A stretch of 12,538 nucleotides of DNA from Rhodobacter sp. GTDB lineage: Bacteria; Pseudomonadota; Alphaproteobacteria; Rhodobacterales; Rhodobacteraceae. How positions within the stretch are numbered: position 1 is the stretch's first letter; each line of letters begins with the position of its first letter. Shown piece by piece: positions 2,447 through 12,425 of this stretch. Location: the NCBI GenBank assembly GCA_013824045.1, contig PNND01000435.1, positions 1 to 12,538 of the forward strand, read 5' to 3'. Position numbers and translations under genes: made by a program. Under the pieces are notes generated by a model. It was not told the origin of the DNA and did not search any database. It worked only from the letters and a program-made list of their open reading frames with translations.

Positions 2447-4554
2447 CAGAACGCGATCCGCTTCGCGATCGACAGCTTCGCCGCCCGGCCCAGCGCGTTT
2501 TCCGTTGCAAGGTTGTTGCGATAGTTCCGGTCGAACACGTTATCGACGGCCAGATTGACCTCCAGCCCCGCCAGCGGCCCCTCGTCCGGCGACCATGTCA
2601 CGAACAGGTCATGCGTGTCATAGGACGCGCCCGTCGTGGCGGCGCTCGATGTGCGGATATTGTCGAAATAGCTCGCCCGCCACCCCACCGTCAGCGATTG
2701 TTCCGGCAGCTTTGCCCCCACAGTCAGCACGACGTTTTCGGCAGGCGTATCCGGCAGCGTCAGCCCCGTCGCCTTGTTCTTCGATTTCACATGGCTATAG
2801 GCCAGTTGTGCAAACCACCGCTCGGCATCATAGGCGGCTTCGATCTCGGCCCCCCACAACTCTGCCGCGTTGATATTGGAAAAGAAAGGCACCGCTGGCC
2901 CCCCGGCCACGCGGGGCGTGGTGGCAATCATGTTGGTCAGGTCGTTGTGAAACGCCGTCACCTTCATCTGCAGACTGTCACCCTCAGAGAGCAGACCCTC
3001 GCGCTGCCAGGTAAACCCCAGTTCCACCGTATCCGCCTCTTCCTTTTGCAGGTTCAGGCTGGGCGTGCGCGCAGGCAGCGCCCCCGCCGCCTCGCTAGAA
3101 TAAAGCTCATCCAGCGTCGGCATCCGCTCCGTCCGCGCCAGCGATCCGAAGATGGCAAAGCTGTCGCTCACCTCATACATCGCCGCGATCTTGGGCGACA
3201 CGGCGGTATCCTCGGCGGGCCGCGCCCCTGCGGCCAGGGCCGCGGCGCTTGGCGTCCGATTGCCAAAGTCCACCCGCAGACCCGGGATGATCGTCAACCG
3301 CTCGCCAAAGGTGAATTCGCCCTGCGCATAGACACCGATCCGGCGATCCTCGCCCTCGGGATGAAAGCCGAACGCCCCCAGCGAGGATGTGGCGCTGCGC
3401 TCCTGTTCCGAGAACTGCACGCCGAGTGTCAGGTAATTCTCCCACGCGCCGCCGCTCAGATCGGCGGTGTTTTCCAGTTTCACCGTCGTCGTCGCATAGC
3501 CATAGCTGCTGGGACACAGGACCTGAGTCAGCCCCGGCCCGCACACAAGCGCCGTCCCCCGAAAATTCGATTTGTCCACACTGGTTTCGGCAAAGGACAG
3601 TTGTGCCGTCAGGTCAAGCAGCGGGTTGTCCCGGAATTCGTTCCGCCATGTCAGCGTCAGCGTATCGTCGACCGTGCGCAGGTCATGCAGCCCGAATGTC
3701 GCCAAGGTGGCCGCCGTGCCCCCCGTCTGAACAACCGGCGATCCCGGCAGGTCGCTTTCGCTGCGCGTGAAGGAAAGTGTCAGGCTTTGTTCCTCATCCG
3801 CGCCAAAGCTCCACTTGCCCTTCAACAAGCCCGACACACCGTCAAAGGCGGTCCCCCGAAGCACCGCGCCCGAACCATCCACCCTGTCATTGATGTCGCT
3901 GAAATTCAGCGCGGCAACATATTCGCCATTGCCAGCCCGCGTTGCCGAGATGACCCCCAACCCCAGCCCGTCACCATTGCTGTCAAAGCTTGTGGAGAAC
4001 CGGAACACCTGCGTTTCGCCGTCCTCAAGGAAATCACTGGCATCCTTGGTGGTAAAGTTCACCGCCCCCCCGATTGCCCCCGAACCGTATAGCGTCGAAG
4101 AGGCTGGTCCACGCAGCACCTCAACCCGCTTGAAAAGATCCAGATCGCTGAAGAACGACCCCATCCGATAGGATTCATAGAATTTGGGCGCTCCATCCAC
4201 CGTCACGGCAATCCGCGATTCGGATGAGGATTGGTCAAACGTGCCGATACCCCGGATGTTGAAGGCCTGCCCCAACGGCCGGGCCGGGGACCCCGTCCCC
4301 TGAATCCCCGGCACCGCCTTGAACAGATCGCCGATCGTCGTCGCCTGATCGCGCTCCAGCTCCTCGGCCTCGATCGTGCTCACCGCTTGCGGCGTGTCGA
4401 TCGCCACCTTGGCCGTCCCGGTGCCTAGGATGATCCGCCCCAGCACCTGAAAGAACCCGTCGCTCTCCTGCGCCGCAGCAGGCCCGGCACAAAGCAGAAT
4501 CACAGGAACAGTACACAGCAGTCGCGCCCTGCGGGCCGCCTTCAGGATCGGCAT
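2446..4554 (-). CDS. hmuR: TonB-dependent outer-membrane heme receptor
   Basis: Outer-membrane receptor of 702 residues that should import heme or heme-protein-bound heme. Residues 1-28 are a signal peptide (hydrophobic core, AAA-Q cleavage). A TonB-box-like RIILG follows near 40, then the plug (about 55-170, with IGDLFKAVPGI, FNIRGIG, RVEVLRGPASSTLYGSGAIG) and a 22-strand-type barrel ending in a C-terminal Phe. ERMPTLDELY (476-485) sits where heme receptors have the FRAP motif, and PSLNLQKEEADTVELGF (498-514) where they have NPNL. No His lies between the two, unlike the classical HemR/ShuA group. Cys338 and Cys347 could bridge an extracellular loop. The ATG at 4554 is chosen because AGGGG lies 8 bases ahead of it; a GTG at 4563 would have no spacing. 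Heme specificity is inferred mainly from the adjacent hmuSTUV genes. Confidence 0.92.
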   Translation of the reverse strand: MPILKAARRARLLCTVPVILLCAGPAAAQESDGFFQVLGRIILGTGTAKVAIDTPQAVSTIEAEELERDQATTIGDLFKAVPGIQGTGSPARPLGQAFNIRGIGTFDQSSSESRIAVTVDGAPKFYESYRMGSFFSDLDLFKRVEVLRGPASSTLYGSGAIGGAVNFTTKDASDFLEDGETQVFRFSTSFDSNGDGLGLGVISATRAGNGEYVAALNFSDINDRVDGSGAVLRGTAFDGVSGLLKGKWSFGADEEQSLTLSFTRSESDLPGSPVVQTGGTAATLATFGLHDLRTVDDTLTLTWRNEFRDNPLLDLTAQLSFAETSVDKSNFRGTALVCGPGLTQVLCPSSYGYATTTVKLENTADLSGGAWENYLTLGVQFSEQERSATSSLGAFGFHPEGEDRRIGVYAQGEFTFGERLTIIPGLRVDFGNRTPSAAALAAGARPAEDTAVSPKIAAMYEVSDSFAIFGSLARTERMPTLDELYSSEAAGALPARTPSLNLQKEEADTVELGFTWQREGLLSEGDSLQMKVTAFHNDLTNMIATTPRVAGGPAVPFFSNINAAELWGAEIEAAYDAERWFAQLAYSHVKSKNKATGLTLPDTPAENVVLTVGAKLPEQSLTVGWRASYFDNIRTSSAATTGASYDTHDLFVTWSPDEGPLAGLEVNLAVDNVFDRNYRNNLATENALGRAAKLSIAKRIAF

Positions 4555-4648
4555 CGGTCTCACCCCTTTTGTCGTTGTTTTTGAAAGGGCTGGCCGGGCG
4601 GATCGCTTGGCTGGCGGCAGGTCGGTCCGTCTTGGCGGATATTCCGAC

Positions 4649-4677
4649 TTGATCTGTCAGGAAATGGCTTCTAGAAA
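4649..4677 (+). promoter_or_regulatory. Candidate promoter of the hmuSTUV operon
   Basis: TTGATC (4649-4654) is followed after 17 bases by TAGAAA (4672-4677). Each box matches four of six consensus bases. The predicted start point, near 4684, falls inside the operator-like site, and the leader to the hmuS ATG would be about 107 bases. No better pair was seen nearer to hmuS, where the DNA is GC-rich. Confidence 0.4.
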
Positions 4678-4684
4678 GCCTGAC
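4656..4684. repeat. Inverted repeats in the divergent hmu promoter region
   Basis: GTCAGG (4656-4661) and CCTGAC (4679-4684) are inverted arms 17 bases apart. Nested inside them are GGCTT (4666-4670) and AAGCC (4676-4680), centred near the 8-bp palindrome TTCTAGAA (4669-4676). The right outer arm overlaps the TGA-N9-TCA site. This may be a second regulator-binding site; no protein is assigned. Confidence 0.4.
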
Positions 4685-4696
4685 TGTAACTGTCAA
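4668..4696 (-). promoter_or_regulatory. hmuR-exbBD-tonB promoter
   Basis: The minus strand has a perfect TTGACA (4696-4691), 17 bases, then TAGAAG (4673-4668). The -35 box overlaps the iron-rhodo-box-like site at 4681-4695, so a bound repressor would block RNA polymerase directly. The leader to the hmuR ATG would be about 105 bases. Confidence 0.6.
4681..4695. promoter_or_regulatory. Iron-rhodo-box-like operator
   Basis: TGACTGTAACTGTCA is an inverted repeat with exactly the TGA-N9-TCA layout described for the iron-responsive operator of Rhizobiales and Rhodobacterales, bound by RirA or, in Rhodobacterales, proposed for an IscR-type regulator. It overlaps the hmuR -35 box on one strand and falls about at the transcription start predicted for hmuS on the other, between two iron-acquisition operons. 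Site seen directly; the regulator is inferred. Confidence 0.7.
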
Positions 4697-4790
4697 GTAT
4701 TCGAAACGCCTGCCCGCTGCTTGACCCACGCGCACCAGCCCCGGCCCCGCCGCCCGCCAGACGCGCCCCATTCCCTGACTGGAGCACATC

Positions 4791-5843
4791 ATGGCTGACG
4801 GCCAATCCCACCCGCTGACCCCCGCCGCCATCCGCGCCCTGCGGCTTGAAAACCCCAAGGCCCGCGCCCGCGACTTCGCCCATGCCAACGGCATCCCGGA
4901 GGCCGCCCTCGTCGCCGCCCATGTCGGCCACGGCACTACCGCCATCGACGCCACAACCGACCGCCTGTTTCCGCTGATCCGCGATCTGGGCGATGTCATG
5001 GCGCTGACCCGCAACGCCTCCTGCGTCCATGAACGCCGCGGCGTCTATTCCGATTACCGCTCCGGCCCCCATGCCGCCATGGTGCTCGACCCCGAGATCG
5101 ACCTGCGCATCTTCCCCGCCCATTGGAAGCACGCCTTCGCCGTCTTGGAACAGGCCGAAGATGGCCCACGCCGCAGCCTGCAAATCTTCGATGCCGCAGG
5201 CGATGCCGTCCACAAGGTGCACCTGAAGCCCGTCTCCCATGTCGATGCCTTCGACACGCTAACCGCCGCCCTCGGCCTGCCCGACCAGCCGCAAACCCTG
5301 TCCCTCACCCCCCGCATCCCGACCGAGGGCCCAAAGGGCAACCCCGCCCGCGCCGATGACCTGCGCCGCGACTGGGACGCGATGACCGACACGCATCAGT
5401 TCAACACCCTGACCCGCCGCCTGAAAATGAACCGCCTCGGCGCATACCAACTCGCAGGCACCCCCCGCGCCGAACGCATCGACACCGGGGCCGTGACACA
5501 GGCCCTCCACGTCGCCGCCGACGCCGCCATCCCCCTCATGATCTTCGTCGGCAACGCCGGCTGCATCCAGATCCACGGCGGCCCCATCGAAAAGGTCGTC
5601 CCCATGGGCCCATGGATCAACGTCATGGACCCGCGCTTCAACCTCCACCTGCGCAGCGATCACATCACCGAAGTCTGGCGCGTCTGGAAACCCACCCGCA
5701 CGGGCGATGCCAACAGCATCGAGGCGTTTGACAAGGACGGCAGCCTGATCCTGCAAATCTTCGGCTACCGCAAGGACAAGGCCCCCACGGCCTGGAACGC
5801 CTTCGTCAAATCCCTCCCCGCGCTGGAAGGGGTATCGGCATGA
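4791..5843 (+). CDS. hmuS: HmuS-family cytoplasmic heme-handling/degrading protein
   Basis: HemS/ChuS/HmuS-family protein of 350 residues, the normal length for this two-repeat family. These proteins receive imported heme in the cytoplasm and, in studied members, carry it or open the ring to release iron. Recognisable segments are VMALTRNASCVHERRGVYSD (69-88), FPAHWKHAF (108-116), and the second-repeat block IFVGNAGCIQIHGGPIEKVV (251-270) with GPWINVMDPRFNLHLR (273-288). His202 in DTHQF is placed like the heme-ligand His of Yersinia HemS. There is no signal peptide, as expected. The ATG follows TGGAG at good spacing. The stop overlaps the hmuT start as ATGA. It is the first gene of the rightward operon. 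Confidence 0.93.
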   Translation: MADGQSHPLTPAAIRALRLENPKARARDFAHANGIPEAALVAAHVGHGTTAIDATTDRLFPLIRDLGDVMALTRNASCVHERRGVYSDYRSGPHAAMVLDPEIDLRIFPAHWKHAFAVLEQAEDGPRRSLQIFDAAGDAVHKVHLKPVSHVDAFDTLTAALGLPDQPQTLSLTPRIPTEGPKGNPARADDLRRDWDAMTDTHQFNTLTRRLKMNRLGAYQLAGTPRAERIDTGAVTQALHVAADAAIPLMIFVGNAGCIQIHGGPIEKVVPMGPWINVMDPRFNLHLRSDHITEVWRVWKPTRTGDANSIEAFDKDGSLILQIFGYRKDKAPTAWNAFVKSLPALEGVSA

Positions 5844-6709
5844 CGATCCGCCTGAACTTGGGCCTCACCCTCGCCCTCTCGCTGGCCCTCGCCGCCCCCG
5901 CACTGCCCACAGCAGCCTTGGCCGACCCGGCCCAGCGCGTCCTCACCCTCGGCGGTTCGGTCACCGAAATCGCCGTCGCCCTCGGGGCCGAGGATCGCCT
6001 CATCGGGCGCGACAGCACCTCTACCTTCCCGCCCTCGGTGACCTCGCTCCCCGATGTCGGCTATTTCCGCGCCCTCTCACCCGAAGGCGTCCTCGCCCTC
6101 AACCCCGACCTGATCCTGTCGGAAAACGGCGCAGGCCCGCGCGAGGCGCTGGATGTGCTGAACGCCGCTGGCATCCCCTTCATCGTGACGGGGGATGACA
6201 CCACCCCCGATGGCCTGACCGCCAAGATCACCACCGTCGCCAACGCGCTCGACCTGCCCGAACAGGGCAAGGCGCTCGCGGCGCAGGTGGCCGAAGGCCT
6301 GCAAACCGCCCGCGACCGCGCCGCCACAGTCCAAACCCCCAAACGCGTCCTCTTCATCCTCTCGCTGCAAGGCGGCCGCGTCATGGCGGGCGGCGAAGGC
6401 TCGTCGGCCGAAAGCATCATCACCCTCGCAGGCGGCATCAACGCAGGCACCGGTTTTCAGGGCTACAAGCAGATCACCGATGAGGCGGTCCTGACCGCCG
6501 CCCCCGATGTGATCCTGATGATGGATCGCGAAGGCGACCTTGCCATCAACAATGACATGGTTCTCGCCCACCCCGCCCTGTCGCAAACCCCCGCCGCCAA
6601 GGCGGGCGCGATCGTCCGCATGGATGGCCTGCTGCTTCTGGGCTTCGGCCCCCGCACCCCGCAGGCCGCCGCCGATCTGCACGCCCTCCTCTATCCCGGT
6701 CAGGGTTGA
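5840..6709 (+). CDS. hmuT: Periplasmic heme-binding protein
   Basis: Substrate-binding protein of the heme ABC transporter, 289 residues, expected to take heme in the periplasm and deliver it to HmuU-HmuV. A clear signal peptide (residues 1-28, cleavage ALA-D, no lipobox Cys) precedes a cluster A/BtuF-type fold starting RVLTLGGSVTEIAVALGAED. GYFRALSPEGVLALNPDLIL (74-93) contains Tyr75, in the position of the axial heme-ligand Tyr of ShuT and PhuT. The ATG overlaps the hmuS stop (ATGA), so translation is coupled. Context, with hmuS before and a FecCD permease after, makes heme more likely than siderophore or cobalamin. Confidence 0.93.
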   Translation: MTIRLNLGLTLALSLALAAPALPTAALADPAQRVLTLGGSVTEIAVALGAEDRLIGRDSTSTFPPSVTSLPDVGYFRALSPEGVLALNPDLILSENGAGPREALDVLNAAGIPFIVTGDDTTPDGLTAKITTVANALDLPEQGKALAAQVAEGLQTARDRAATVQTPKRVLFILSLQGGRVMAGGEGSSAESIITLAGGINAGTGFQGYKQITDEAVLTAAPDVILMMDREGDLAINNDMVLAHPALSQTPAAKAGAIVRMDGLLLLGFGPRTPQAAADLHALLYPGQG

Positions 6710-7777: not shown

Positions 7778-8557
7778 ATGCTCACCGCCCAGAACCTCAC
7801 CCTCGCCCGCGATGGCCGCACGATCCTGTCAGGCATCACCCTCACCGCCCAACCGGGCGAGGTCACCGCGATCATCGGCCCCAACGGATCGGGCAAGACC
7901 ACGCTTATGGCAGCCCTCACGGGCGATCTGGCTCCCGTCACGGGGGAAGTCACCCTCAACGGCGATGATATCGCCCGCCTCTCCCCCCGCCACCTCGCCG
8001 CCCGCCGCGCCGTGCTGGCGCAGGAAACCCAGGTCGCCTTCCCCTTCACCGTGGCTGAAATCCTGCAACTGGGGATCGAGGCCGGCACCGGCCCCACCGA
8101 CTCCGCCCTCATCCCCCGCCTGCTGGCCGAGGTCGATCTCGCAGGCACCGCCCATCGCCCGATCCACGCCCTGTCAGGCGGCGAACGCCAGCGCATCCAC
8201 TTCGCCCGCGCCCTCGCCCAAGCCCGCCGCCCGCGCGGCGATCAGGGGCCGATGTGGCTTTTCCTCGATGAACCCGCCTCCAGCCTCGACATTGCGCACC
8301 AGCTTATGGTCATGCGCCGCGCCCGCCGCTTCGCGGCCGAGGGCGGCGGCGTCGTCACGGTCATGCATGACCTCAACCTCACCGCCATGACCGCCGATCA
8401 CGTGATCCTGCTGGCCGAAGGCCGCCTCCTCGCCGCAGGCCCCCCGGCCGAGGTGATGACCGACCGCCTCCTGTCACAGGCCTATCGCTGCGGCATCCGC
8501 ACCAACCGCACCCCCGCCCAAGGCCCCTATCTGCTGCCGCAAATGGCCGGGGCGTGA
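7778..8557 (+). CDS. hmuV: Heme ABC transporter ATPase
   Basis: Cytoplasmic ATPase subunit of 259 residues powering HmuTU. All ABC motifs are intact: Walker A GPNGSGKTT (34-42), Q-loop Gln82 in LAQET, signature LSGGERQRI (132-140), Walker B MWLFLDEP (159-166), D-loop SSLD and H-loop His197 in VMHD. Length and the C-terminal extension (YRCGIRTNRTP, then a PQMAGA end) fit the HmuV/FecE-type group. It starts three bases after the hmuU stop and is the last gene of the operon. No obvious terminator follows; 15 bases after its stop the 36-bp repeat that bounds the R-M island begins. Confidence 0.95.
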   Translation: MLTAQNLTLARDGRTILSGITLTAQPGEVTAIIGPNGSGKTTLMAALTGDLAPVTGEVTLNGDDIARLSPRHLAARRAVLAQETQVAFPFTVAEILQLGIEAGTGPTDSALIPRLLAEVDLAGTAHRPIHALSGGERQRIHFARALAQARRPRGDQGPMWLFLDEPASSLDIAHQLMVMRRARRFAAEGGGVVTVMHDLNLTAMTADHVILLAEGRLLAAGPPAEVMTDRLLSQAYRCGIRTNRTPAQGPYLLPQMAGA

Positions 8558-8571
8558 CAGGGCAAGTGCCG

Positions 8572-8607
8572 CCTCACACCGCCCGCATCCAGAACTGCAA
8601 CGGCTTC
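8572..8607. repeat. 36-bp direct repeat, left copy (GNAT gene tail remnant)
   Basis: This 36-base block, from CCTCACACCGCC to AACGGCTTC, is identical to 10938-10973. Read leftward it is the last 10 codons (KPLQFWMRAV) plus the stop of the GNAT gene whose complete copy ends at 10940. It lies 15 bases after the hmuV stop, at the left edge of the low-GC island. Identity stops at 8571/10937 and 8608/10974. It is best read as a target duplication or attachment-site copy made when the island entered. Confidence 0.88.
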
Positions 8608-8619
8608 TGCAGGAAGGGA

Positions 8620-8648
8620 TTGACTGGTGCCATTAGTGGCGATCACAT
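8620..8648 (+). promoter_or_regulatory. Weak candidate promoter for the endonuclease gene
   Basis: TTGACT (8620-8625) matches the -35 box in five of six bases. The best -10 at 17 bases, TCACAT (8643-8648), matches only three. A small inverted repeat GCCA-TTAG-TGGC (8629-8640) sits between the boxes and could be an operator. The remaining bases of 8608-8677 show nothing else. Confidence 0.3.
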
Positions 8649-8677
8649 CCATCCTCAGTGCCTAACACGAGTCATTT

Positions 8678-9694
8678 ATGCCCAAGTATCACATAGCAGA
8701 ATGGTATGGCCTACCCTTCGATCAGTTGCTCCCGGAGGAAAGAGTAGCCCTTGCGCATCACAAAGCCGTCGGTCAGCCCCTAAAGGGCGCTGCGCTGAAA
8801 CGGCTTGTCGATTTGGAAAGAAGGTCGGCATCTGGTGCCAGCCTGACCAAGAAAGAGCTTGAACGACTGAAAGCCCTGAGGTCCCAACTTACGGAGGGGT
8901 TGTCCGAACTAAAGCCCTGTCCGTTCAAGATCACACCCTACCCAACGTGCACAAAGAAGGGCGGAGTCTGTTCTGTTCGGTTATATGATGAAGGTGATGA
9001 CAACGTCATCAAACCGTTAGAAGGAGAGCGCGGTAGCATCAGGTGCCTCTGCCCTTACCGCCTTCATCAAGACAAGACAGCCTTCAAGCATCTTAGCCAA
9101 ATTGCTTTGAAGGATCCCAACCCAAGATTAGCAGGCGAGGTTGGCTTTCTCGAAGGCGACGGTGGACTTGACATGGAGAAGGGCGAGGACGTCGGAAAGA
9201 TCGACATGATCATCGTCAGTACACTGAAAACCAATGAACTGGACTGGTGCGCTGCCGAGGTTCAGGCCGTATACTTTTCGGGCGATGCTATGGAGGTCGA
9301 ATTTCGTCACATTATCGCCCAAGGCGGAAAGTTGACGATGCCTCATGGAAGACGCAAACCCGACTACCGCAGCAGCAGCGTCAAGAGACTGATGCCCCAG
9401 CTCCAGATCAAGATACCGACGCTTCGCCGTTGGAGCCGAAAGATGGGGATAATCGTCGATAAGTCCTTCTATGGAAATCTTGGAGAGATGCGGAAAAGCA
9501 GTGATCCTTCGAATGCAGACATTGCATGGGTACTGCTTGACTTCTCCTACGACTCCACTTCACGGATCTATCGCGCCCACGTCCATGATGTTGCATGGGT
9601 AACGCTCGAAGACGCAACATACGGGCTAACCAACGGTCGTCCGATCTCAAAAAAAGCATTTGAAGAGAAAATTCTAAGCAAATTGTCTGCCTGA
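8678..9694 (+). CDS. NotI-family type II restriction endonuclease
   Basis: Predicted restriction endonuclease of 338 residues related to NotI, the rare-cutting enzyme. Two family marks are visible. First, a four-cysteine site: Cys81 in CPF, Cys91, Cys98 in GGVCS, and Cys125 in CLCPYR (Cys123 is an extra one); in the NotI structure the equivalent cysteines hold an iron atom. Second, a PD-(D/E)XK-type catalytic core with Asp176 (GKIDMIIV), Glu194 and Gln196 in AAEVQAVYFSG, matching the D...ExQ pattern of NotI (LEIQTMDFHG there). The N-terminal 75 residues, charged and helical, are not recognised. The ATG is the first start after an in-frame TAA at 8663; its Shine-Dalgarno is poor. It is paired with the methyltransferase downstream. 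The target sequence cannot be read from the protein. Confidence 0.83.
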   Translation: MPKYHIAEWYGLPFDQLLPEERVALAHHKAVGQPLKGAALKRLVDLERRSASGASLTKKELERLKALRSQLTEGLSELKPCPFKITPYPTCTKKGGVCSVRLYDEGDDNVIKPLEGERGSIRCLCPYRLHQDKTAFKHLSQIALKDPNPRLAGEVGFLEGDGGLDMEKGEDVGKIDMIIVSTLKTNELDWCAAEVQAVYFSGDAMEVEFRHIIAQGGKLTMPHGRRKPDYRSSSVKRLMPQLQIKIPTLRRWSRKMGIIVDKSFYGNLGEMRKSSDPSNADIAWVLLDFSYDSTSRIYRAHVHDVAWVTLEDATYGLTNGRPISKKAFEEKILSKLSA

Positions 9695-9699
9695 CCTGA

Positions 9700-9728
9700 T
9701 TGTCAGAAGGCACACTGGTTGCTATCTT
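9700..9728 (+). promoter_or_regulatory. Methyltransferase promoter
   Basis: TTGTCA (9700-9705) is followed after 17 bases by TATCTT (9723-9728), five and four matches to consensus. It starts six bases after the endonuclease stop, giving a leader of about 35 bases to the ATG at 9770. It would let the protective methyltransferase be made independently of the endonuclease. Confidence 0.5.
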
Positions 9729-9769
9729 ACAAGTGGAAACAAAATAAGAACAAGGCGCGGGAAAACTGC

Positions 9770-10900
9770 ATGAGCCTCACAGCAATCGACCTTTTCTGCG
9801 GTGCTGGCGGCCTGTCGGCCGGGCTTGAACTTGCAGGCTTCAAGGTACTCGCTGGTGTCGACATGTTTGTGGCCGCCGGAAAAACCTTTGAAGATAGTCA
9901 TCCAAACGCGAAATTCATATGCCGACCCATCGAGGCGGTGTCCGTTGATGACTTGATGATGGAAACGGGCCTTAAGCCAGGCGAGCTAACGGTGTTGGCA
10001 GGAGGCCCCCCGTGTCAGGCGTATTCGGTCTACAACCATCAACGCGGTATGCACGACGAAAGAGCAACTTTGTTCCGTGAGTATCTCCGGATCGTTGCCG
10101 GTTTACAGCCGGAGTGGATCATCATGGAAAACGTGATGGGCATCTATTCAATTGGAGGAGGTGCTGCGGTACGAGCCATCCAGTTCGAATTGGAGGCGCT
10201 AGGTTACGCGGTCAAAGAAAAAGTGCTTAAGGCAGAGGAGTTTGGTGTACCGCAGGAACGCCGCCGCGTTGTATTCATTGGCAACCGTACCGGCGATCCG
10301 ATCTTGCATCCCGAACCGTCACATGGCCCGGACCGGGAGTATCCTTTCGTGACAATCTGGGACGCTATAGGTGATCTGCCGCCACTCGAGAACGGTGAAG
10401 ATCGTGGCACAGTTCCTTACTCAAAGCCTGCAGACGGCCATTTCCAAATACTTGTCCGAGGAAAACAGCATACCGTGACAGGTCATACGGCACCAAAACT
10501 TGGCAAGGCGAACTTGCAGCGCCTTGACCATATTCCCGAGGGTGGAAGTTGGCGGGATATTCCGTATGACCTTCTCCCTACAGGCATGAAACGTGCGAAG
10601 CGTTCCGACCATACTAAACGTTATGGTCGGATGTCTTGGAACGGGCTGTCTTGCACTGTTTTGACGAAATGCGACATCCATTGGGGTGCGTACATCCACC
10701 CCGAACAAAACCGCGCTATTTCAGTGCGGGAAGCCGCAAGACTCCAAGCGTTTCCGGATAGTTTCGAATTTCATGGCAGCAAAACAGATCAATACGTCCA
10801 GATTGGCAACGCTGTACCCCCTTTGCTTGGTAGAGCGATCGGGCTTGCCGTACGCAAAGTTATCGAAAATGCCAAGAATTCAAGGATAGCGGCTGAGTAG
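9770..10900 (+). CDS. C5-cytosine DNA methyltransferase
   Basis: DNA (cytosine-5) methyltransferase of 376 residues, the expected protecting partner of the NotI-like endonuclease. Conserved motifs occur in standard order: I DLFCGAGGLSAGLE (7-20), IV GGPPCQAYS (78-86) with catalytic Cys82, VI ENV (120-122), VIII QERRRVVFIG (162-171), IX RAISVREAARLQAFPD (315-330) and X QIGNAVPPLLGRAIG (344-358). Residues about 175-310 between VIII and IX hold the target-recognition domain, whose specificity is not predictable here. The ATG at 9770 is preferred over a TTG at 9719: it puts motif I at residue 7 as usual and lies downstream of the predicted promoter, which the TTG would precede. Its ribosome site is weak. 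No controller (C) protein or vsr gene accompanies it. Confidence 0.95.
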   Translation: MSLTAIDLFCGAGGLSAGLELAGFKVLAGVDMFVAAGKTFEDSHPNAKFICRPIEAVSVDDLMMETGLKPGELTVLAGGPPCQAYSVYNHQRGMHDERATLFREYLRIVAGLQPEWIIMENVMGIYSIGGGAAVRAIQFELEALGYAVKEKVLKAEEFGVPQERRRVVFIGNRTGDPILHPEPSHGPDREYPFVTIWDAIGDLPPLENGEDRGTVPYSKPADGHFQILVRGKQHTVTGHTAPKLGKANLQRLDHIPEGGSWRDIPYDLLPTGMKRAKRSDHTKRYGRMSWNGLSCTVLTKCDIHWGAYIHPEQNRAISVREAARLQAFPDSFEFHGSKTDQYVQIGNAVPPLLGRAIGLAVRKVIENAKNSRIAAE

Positions 10901-10905
10901 ACTTC

Positions 10906-10927
10906 TTCTTGTTTAGGGTGACAAGAA
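10906..10927 (+). terminator. Hairpin after the methyltransferase gene
   Basis: TTCTTGT (10906-10912) and ACAAGAA (10921-10927) form a perfect 7-bp stem with an 8-base loop, 5 bases beyond the stop. The stem is AT-rich and no T-run follows, so it is either a weak terminator between convergent genes or an end structure of the island. Confidence 0.4.
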
Positions 10928-10937
10928 ACTAGCCCGC

Positions 10938-10973
10938 CCTCACACCGCCCGCATCCAGAACTGCAACGGCTTC
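10938..10973. repeat. 36-bp direct repeat, right copy (inside the GNAT gene end)
   Basis: Identical to 8572-8607. This copy is part of the complete GNAT gene: it spans the stop codon (10940-10942) and the last 10 codons. It marks the right edge of the low-GC island; to its right the DNA returns to host-like high GC. Confidence 0.88.
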
Positions 10974-11545
10974 ACGCTCTCGCCCGCCTGCCCGATATCC
11001 TTCCACGAAAACTCCGCCACCACACCCGGCAGCGGCGCGTAGCCCCGGCCCTGCCAGAAGCCATCATTCGTGCGATAGGTTCCGGGCCGCAGCGGATGAT
11101 CCTCGGGCCGCATCACCGAACAAAAGGCCACATGCCCTCGCCCCAGCGCCCGCGCGTGGTCCTCCCGCAGGTCAAGGAAGCGATGCCCGATCCCCTTGCC
11201 GCGATACTCCGGCAACAGCACCGATTCCGCGCCGTAAAGAATATCCTCCAGCGCCAGCCCCCGCCCGGCAAAAGGGGCCGCGAAGGCCTCCGCATGGTCT
11301 TCCATCGGGGTGGAGGTCGACGCCCCCACCAGCACATCGCCAAAGAACGCCCCCACCAGCAAGGCGCCGGGGCTGTCGCGATAGGTACTCAGATAGTCCC
11401 GCTCATAGTCCAGCGACCCGTCATACAGATAAGGCCAGTCCCGGAACACCGCGATGCGCAGCCGCGCCACATCGTCCAGCGCCGCCTCCAGCGCCTCACC
11501 GCGCAGCGCCCGGACGGTGATCCCCTCCGGCAGGTCGCGGCTCAT
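10940..11545 (-). CDS. GNAT-family N-acetyltransferase
   Basis: Predicted acetyltransferase of 201 residues; the substrate is unknown. The acetyl-CoA-binding motif A is clear as SVLLPEYRGKGIGHRFLDLR (108-127) with the R-G-K-G-I-G loop at 115-120, preceded by a strand VLVGASTSTP. N-terminal VRALRGEALEAALDDVARLR and IAVFRDWPYLYDG resemble the start of other GNAT enzymes of this group. The ATG at 11545 overlaps the stop of the SnoaL-like gene (ATGA), so the two are coupled. Its final 10 codons and stop lie within the 36-bp repeat duplicated next to hmuV. The complete ORF shows that island entry did not break it. Confidence 0.87.
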   Translation of the reverse strand: MSRDLPEGITVRALRGEALEAALDDVARLRIAVFRDWPYLYDGSLDYERDYLSTYRDSPGALLVGAFFGDVLVGASTSTPMEDHAEAFAAPFAGRGLALEDILYGAESVLLPEYRGKGIGHRFLDLREDHARALGRGHVAFCSVMRPEDHPLRPGTYRTNDGFWQGRGYAPLPGVVAEFSWKDIGQAGESVKPLQFWMRAV

Positions 11546-11952: not shown

Positions 11953-12425
11953 GGTCTCTTGTCCTCTTCCGTGGGCGGCCCGAACCGCGCAATCATCCTG
12001 TCCCTGATCTGGTCCCGCGCCTGCCGATAGGCCGCGAGCTTCGCCTCGCGCCCCTCGCCCAGCCCCGTCGGGTCCAGGATCGGCCAGTATTCTACATCCA
12101 GATGGTAGAACCGCGTCAGCTCCAGCGCCATGCGCTGGCTCGCGGGCGACAGCGCAATGATCAGGTCGAACTGGCTCAGATCATCGCCCCATTCCTGCAT
12201 CTCCTCGAAACTGCGCGACCGGTGCCGCGACAGCTCGATGCCCCATTCCTTGCAGACGGCGATGGAGAACCCGTCCACCTCCATGTCATTCTTCACGCCC
12301 GCCGATTGGACATAGGCCCGCTGGCCATACATCTGCTTCATCAACCCTTCGGCCATGGGTGACCGCACGGCATTATGGTCGCAGCAGAACAGGACCGAGG
12401 TGGGAAAGCTATCTCCCAAGATCAA
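11949..12425 (-). CDS. Low-molecular-weight protein-tyrosine-phosphatase/arsenate-reductase-like protein
   Basis: Cytoplasmic protein of the LMW-PTP fold, about 158 residues. The phosphate-binding loop is present as CDHNAVRS (C-x5-R, Cys15 to Arg21), and ILDPTG (116-121) supplies the general-acid Asp118 of the DP motif, so it should be catalytically competent. Family members dephosphorylate phosphotyrosine or, in related ArsC enzymes, reduce arsenate; the sequence does not settle which. No ATG or GTG exists near the expected start. A TTG at 12425 is chosen because it overlaps the upstream gene's stop as TTGA, like the other junctions here; TTGs at 12431 and 12419 are possible. From memory, this gene often follows UPF0262 and hisD in Rhodobacteraceae. 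Confidence 0.87.

Follow-up and report, generated by a model that had tools for sequence, protein, structure and literature searches.

A NotI-type restriction-modification gene pair between two copies of a GNAT gene 3' end, with homologues at tRNA gene 3' ends

In the window, i.e., the whole 12,538-nucleotide Rhodobacter sp. contig analysed here (PNND01000435.1, assembly GCA_013824045.1), a predicted NotI-type type II restriction-modification (R-M) system, and no other gene, lies between two identical copies of the 3' end of a GNAT-family acetyltransferase gene. A different gene pair, held at this position by the closest relatives, is missing; several homologous R-M pairs lie beside tRNA 3' ends, and one of these homologues has an empty site in a relative. 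On this basis it is proposed, at a probability of about 0.45, that an R-M-only unit entered the GNAT 3' end by site-specific recombination, with the integrase acting in trans or since lost.

The gene pair and the 36-bp repeat

The features on which the argument draws are as follows.

7778..8557, + strand: hmuV, haem ABC transporter ATPase, left neighbour (NCBIfam NF010068, over the cut-off)
8572..8607, no strand: left repeat copy, a GNAT tail stranded beside hmuV, 100% identical to the right copy
8608..10937, + strand: R-M-only stretch of 2330 bp separating both copies
8678..9694, + strand: predicted NotI-type restriction endonuclease (R), 338 aa (Pfam PF12183, E 1.7e-80)
9770..10900, + strand: predicted C5-cytosine DNA methyltransferase (M), 376 aa (Pfam PF00145, DNA_methylase, E 2.2e-63)
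10938..10973, no strand: right repeat copy, the GNAT 3' end with its stop and 2 bases beyond
10940..11545, - strand: GNAT-family acetyltransferase, intact, its 3' end duplicated (Pfam PF00583, E 4.3e-06; orthologue 96% in relative G018)

The two copies form a perfect direct repeat (36/36), comprising the last 10 GNAT codons plus one base, the stop codon and 2 further bases; the left copy begins 14 bp after the hmuV stop. An earlier sequence-only reading had described this repeat, with one copy in the complete GNAT gene and the other stranded beside hmuV, and was right in all but its count of the tail (10 codons, stop and 2 bases), which falls one base short. In the organism's own draft genome, which is 83% complete in 512 contigs and of which the window is one whole contig, the 36-mer occurs in these two places only with up to 3 mismatches allowed, and a backwards control pattern in none; the dispersed repeat that this reading had named as a counter-case is absent.

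ORF and Pfam analyses recover only R and M within the 2330 bp. The gaps before R, between R and M and after M (70, 75 and 37 bp, respectively) are too short, so that a recombinase gene cannot fit. The GC fraction is 0.522 between the repeat copies as against ~0.63-0.72 in the flanks. These results bear out the earlier description of a low-GC NotI-like endonuclease and a cytosine methyltransferase with nothing else. An Rfam scan of the stretch gave no family above the gathering score, and an RNA element was rejected, the single match lying far below the cut-off. Transposon ends were likewise rejected, as the two ends are not joined by an inverted repeat and share no sequence with the homologues, as was a left end carried by plasmids or phages (one match each, at E 0.09 and 0.3). 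The exact 36-bp tail pattern was not found in viral contigs.

R resembles the NotI restriction endonuclease family in its PF12183 match (270 bits against a curated cut-off of 22) and in having an adjacent methyltransferase gene in tandem (215 bits to PF00145), the start of which was placed at the ATG yielding the 376-aa form. It differs in giving no sequence match to a solved structure at E 0.01. Searches with R retrieved 2288 proteins at E<=0.001, itself included, the best other being 60% identical, and the best other homologue of M reaches 78% identity. Within the bacterial family, R matches occur in 10 of 394 genomes, the organism's own included; 10 plasmid records match at 30-41%, and no phage record does.

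The hmuV-GNAT neighbourhood in related genomes

The GNAT gene is present in 17 of 18 same-genus relatives, the closest of which, judged by 1599 bp of GNAT flank, are G006 (91.3%) and G018 (91.0%). In both, hmuV faces GNAT as in the window, with ~2 kb and two genes between them, one coding for a GSCFA protein, the other for a protein without a Pfam family that is SGNH-like by eye. The 3' end of hmuV is similar in G018 and G006 and different in G017 and G004. A GSCFA orthologue (at least 73% to that of G018) stands beside GNAT in six of the 18 relatives (G018, G006, G004, G013, G002 and G011); of the remainder, five match only weakly (31-43%) and seven not at all, and none was found in the window's own, 83% complete, genome. 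Since G018 and G006 both keep the pair, the ancestor that they shared with the window most likely had it, and the window lineage most likely lost it. Read from these comparisons, the event in the window would be a gain of the R-M genes plus a loss of ~2 kb.

A simple insertion between adjoining hmuV and GNAT genes, which the sequence-only reading had predicted, is incomplete because the closest relatives hold this gene pair between the two, and was rejected in that form. Likewise, where an empty site had been expected, with a single 36-mer ~15 bp after hmuV and no R-M genes, G018 and G006 have the gene pair instead, and no empty site for the window came to light in the genomes compared, which include no same-species strain. 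The neighbouring gene in G006 shares a 12-bp microhomology at its 3' end with the GNAT end, but by eye this is at odds with the left junction and was discarded. The distance from hmuV to GNAT, 2 kb in G018 and G006, is ~21 kb in G004 (L087/L088; also L085, L086), indicating that the neighbourhood is variable.

A 23-mer of the tail, searched at up to 2 mismatches, is present in a single copy in 17 of 18 same-genus relatives and absent from G003; relatives that lack the R-M genes yet carry both copies, the other foreseen counter-case, are absent. A family-wide search of 394 genomes at up to 3 mismatches gave 127 with a match, own included, most being taken from the match list and not confirmed as GNAT tails. 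Two or three matches occur in 14 of the 126 other family genomes. The identical pair in G454 represents contigs with overlapping ends (98% over 405 bp); by the match list only, G032 has three identical 3-mismatch matches within 900 bp, and G049, G161, G198, G211, G264, G266, G287, G321, G370, G373, G402 and G456 have two differing matches each. The expectation of other cargo at the same GNAT 3' end was disappointed: across 17 genus relatives and 126 family genomes (13 of the 14 multi-match cases judged from the match list) there was no convincing second duplicated tail, nor, in the same genomes, an integrase-bearing relative using the tail as an att site. The single copies in 17 of 18 genus relatives, with none in G003, weaken the idea that the GNAT 3' end commonly serves for attachment.

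Homologous R-M loci and tRNA genes

A scan of named genomes for homologous loci, from which 80 of 200 loci were kept, places the window in a wider context. With tRNA genes located by ARAGORN, a same-strand tRNA gene ends 104-215 bp before R in eight of the 21 closest loci (L110-L130, R at 45-58%), namely L111, L112, L115, L116, L118, L119, L122 and L130. In a control with sliding mock starts the corresponding count is 177 of 67,186 positions, giving a binomial p of ~5e-16 with kinship ignored. A same-strand tRNA lies 831-1236 bp before R in L113, L121 and L125, and the other 59 of the 80 loci have none within 220 bp before R. Some of the eight are related by descent: L111 and L118 are both at tRNA-Asn, and L112 and L115 lie beside what appears by eye to be the same gene. 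Given this shared ancestry, the independent tRNA events number perhaps five or six; on the R tree the tRNA label requires five changes, at least four of which are forced by well-supported branches. The window falls on a long branch with L110, from Paracoccus, in which a tyrosine integrase gene lies 1.3 kb away from R. Integrases were found in 21 of 21 genomes, a genome-level count that does not place them on the R-M contigs.

In 20 of the 21 close loci M was detected beside R and on its strand; the exception, L117, has a masked or unknown stretch after R. The tRNA cases run tRNA-R-M, whereas in the window the GNAT 3' end faces M. Only L116 and L119 among the eight tRNA-linked loci have a second tRNA copy right after M; L112, L118 and L130 are interrupted by contig ends, and for L111, L115 and L122, 6.5-8.8 kb of downstream sequence gave no convincing second copy. 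At 9625-9664 in L115 the 5' part of tRNA-Thr recurs over 40 nt, starting 146 bp before the intact tRNA beside R, as if the site had been used more than once. In L123, L126, L127 and L129 the ORF after M is, by eye, that of a Vsr-like mismatch-repair endonuclease.

Repeat-bounded units among the homologues

Exact repeats of at least 20 bp across the 2-kb flanks occur in 6 of the 80 loci, as against 8 of 962 controls; the cases relied on are L116 and L140, with L185 as a lead. L116, from a Salinarimonas metagenome-assembled genome, is the most informative. Here R and M stand alone between 71-bp tRNA-Thr copies that are 97% identical and 2443 bp apart start-to-start, the second being 6 bp past the M stop; the neighbours are genes with aminotransferase and transketolase domains. 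In the relative G814 (L218) the left (87%) and right (86%) flanks of L116 join at one tRNA-Thr, and this constitutes an empty site. Further, a single T-arm base pair, changed on both of its sides, distinguishes the two L116 copies (GAGAG/CTCTC as against GACAG/CTGTC), which looks unlike a fresh target duplication. As a two-sided change would be rare in a dead copy drifting alone, the tRNA 3' end probably came with the R-M unit. This pair varies among relatives, and G814 has a third form of it, so that the L116 copies may alternatively have diverged after insertion.

In L119, M is frameshifted (HSPs in two frames), and 23 bp beyond its stop a 15/16-bp copy of the tRNA-Arg 3' end precedes what looks by eye like a terminator hairpin. 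A search for an empty site of L119 found none. The 79-bp repeat of L140 contains a nearly complete tRNA-Pro, and its copies, 4 kb apart, enclose more than R-M. In L198, a phage-like contig, 40-bp perfect repeats (9637-9676 and 12318-12357) flank an R-M pair of the NotI-type family; the repeat is intergenic and occurs only twice in the stretch examined, and a weaker similarity (by eye) extends upstream of both copies. The 102-bp, 90% identical repeat of L185 (1137-1238 and 3228-3329) is, like that of the window, a protein-gene 3' end with its stop, and holds a NotI-type R and a different, convergent methyltransferase-like ORF between the copies; it may represent a dispersed gene family. The repeat lengths across these NotI-family loci, the window included, are 36, 71, 16, 79, 40 and 102 bp, and several are tRNA ends. 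Three candidates were dropped: L170, by eye apparently a methylase fragment duplicated at the end of a contig, L178, with a repeat of 22 bp, and L181, which resembles coding repeats.

Units with other contents were also encountered at tRNA-Thr. L234 (G836:C3, ~3632-6529) is a 2.85-kb islet between 45-bp repeats of a tRNA-Thr 3' half with other cargo, i.e., two long ORFs without a Pfam family and no integrase seen among them. Identical tRNA-Thr 3'-end pairs ~20-72 kb apart in G824:C12, G827:C1 and G819:C2 suggest that this kind of tRNA also hosts larger islands.

Mechanism and alternatives

The mobile unit in the proposed mechanism would consist of the 2.33 kb plus one 36-bp copy, with R and M only and no integrase. 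The tail would serve as the attachment core, so that GNAT is completed by one copy while the other ends up next to hmuV. Another element might have supplied the recombinase in trans, or the unit might once have carried it and then lost it, and the GSCFA and SGNH-like pair would have been deleted in the same lineage before, with or after the insertion; the recombinase type, its supply in trans and the order of events are what we infer from the arrangement. The repeat starts 2 bases past the GNAT stop and leaves GNAT intact, as this mechanism would have it, and integration at gene 3' ends gains support from the homologous R-M pairs at tRNA 3' ends together with the one empty site. Counted against it are the integrase-free unit, the lack of a third tail copy in the 83% complete genome, a GNAT-end orientation opposite to that of the tRNA cases and unit ends that are not shared with the homologues. 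Whichever model is preferred, it must also accommodate the lost gene pair, which stands as a fact of its own.

The sequence-only reading had weighed two models, site-specific integration into a protein-gene 3' end and insertion with a long target duplication. The choice of models was sound, and it is the former that the homologues support, although the simple insertion assumed in it is incomplete, as noted above. Under the latter, which we consider rather unlikely, the R-M genes would have entered a staggered break, the 36-bp target being doubled, and the gene pair would have been lost separately. Because neither GNAT nor hmuV is broken by the duplication, an insertion at the GNAT 3' end would be tolerated. 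Taken by itself, the window fits target duplication equally well, having identical copies, no recombinase, no reuse of the site, no third copy and the opposite orientation. That no reuse of the GNAT tail was found among the genus and family genomes keeps this account viable at the window locus, and the variation in repeat length within the NotI family, with the intergenic repeat of L198 on its phage-like contig, may be in keeping with it. A passage of PMC3031569, citing Nobusato 2000 and others, states that genome comparison suggested R-M insertion with long, variable target duplications. However, target duplication leaves the tRNA-3'-end location of the close homologues unexplained, offers no simple account of the two-sided tRNA-Thr difference in L116 and requires a separate deletion of the gene pair.

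Such a deletion is not needed in a gene replacement, illegitimate or homology-assisted, with one join in the GNAT end and a non-homologous join beside hmuV: a single event would cover the missing 2 kb kept by the closest relatives, and the second tail copy would come from donor DNA. The left copy lies close to the hmuV stop, as such a join might leave it, and PMC4176335 suggests transformation or gene transfer agents as R-M routes. A tail copy at the far end is nevertheless unexpected unless the donor unit was already flanked, and this explanation is held to be improbable. More remote still is an assembly effect, in which a metagenome assembler joined an empty hmuV-36-mer-GNAT chromosome to an R-M circle bearing the 36-mer. 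The window being a whole contig of a 512-contig draft, this could occur if the assembler's word length were below 36, but common assemblers end with longer words; were it true, the free R-M circle would be striking in itself.

With these alternatives considered, site-specific recombination at gene 3' ends is favoured, on comparative sequence evidence, for the NotI-type R-M lineage. A bolder and doubtful extension is that the lineage consists of minimal units that carry a borrowed gene 3' end and use the integrase of a matching helper. The helper-matched ends would be those of tRNA-Thr, Asn, Arg and Lys, and in the window that of a protein gene.

Relation to known systems and implications

Kobayashi and colleagues are said to have proposed long target duplication for R-M units, and Furuta, in 2010, reportedly described R-M gene units inserted in this way. 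The window unit is like these in having R-M genes alone, a direct repeat of the target and no recombinase. It differs in that its repeat is a gene 3' end, with close homologues that favour tRNA 3' ends; the copies of one of these homologues, L116, are non-identical and differ by a change on both sides of a base pair. Cis-mobilizable elements (CIMEs) are bounded by attL and attR and lack an integrase. The window unit similarly has att-like repeats at both ends and no integrase, but it is only 2.3 kb, contains just R and M, and the searched genomes yielded no ICE or helper that shares its att; its mobilisation is putative. Genomic islands and satellites at tRNA genes, in turn, have their own tyrosine integrase. 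As in these, a gene 3' end is doubled at the far end of the insert and the gene is left whole, whereas the unit in the window is integrase-free and its target is a protein gene for which a second use was not found in the searched genomes. The literature search having been narrow, no claim is made that R-M-only units at tRNA ends have gone unreported.

R-M systems turn over fast yet are rare on known mobile elements, an 'intriguing question' in the words of PMC4176335, which points to small hotspots of integration or to R-M units that are themselves mobile. Units of R and M alone whose ends are defined, at the 3' ends of tRNA and protein genes, make this question testable: one can search directly for the junctions, for a circle and for a helper integrase, and one homologous unit already has an empty site in a relative. 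The tRNA-end habit of the related units hints at how defence genes spread among bacteria. If the reading of borrowed ends is true, the exchange of ends would let one defence unit switch both its target site and its helper.
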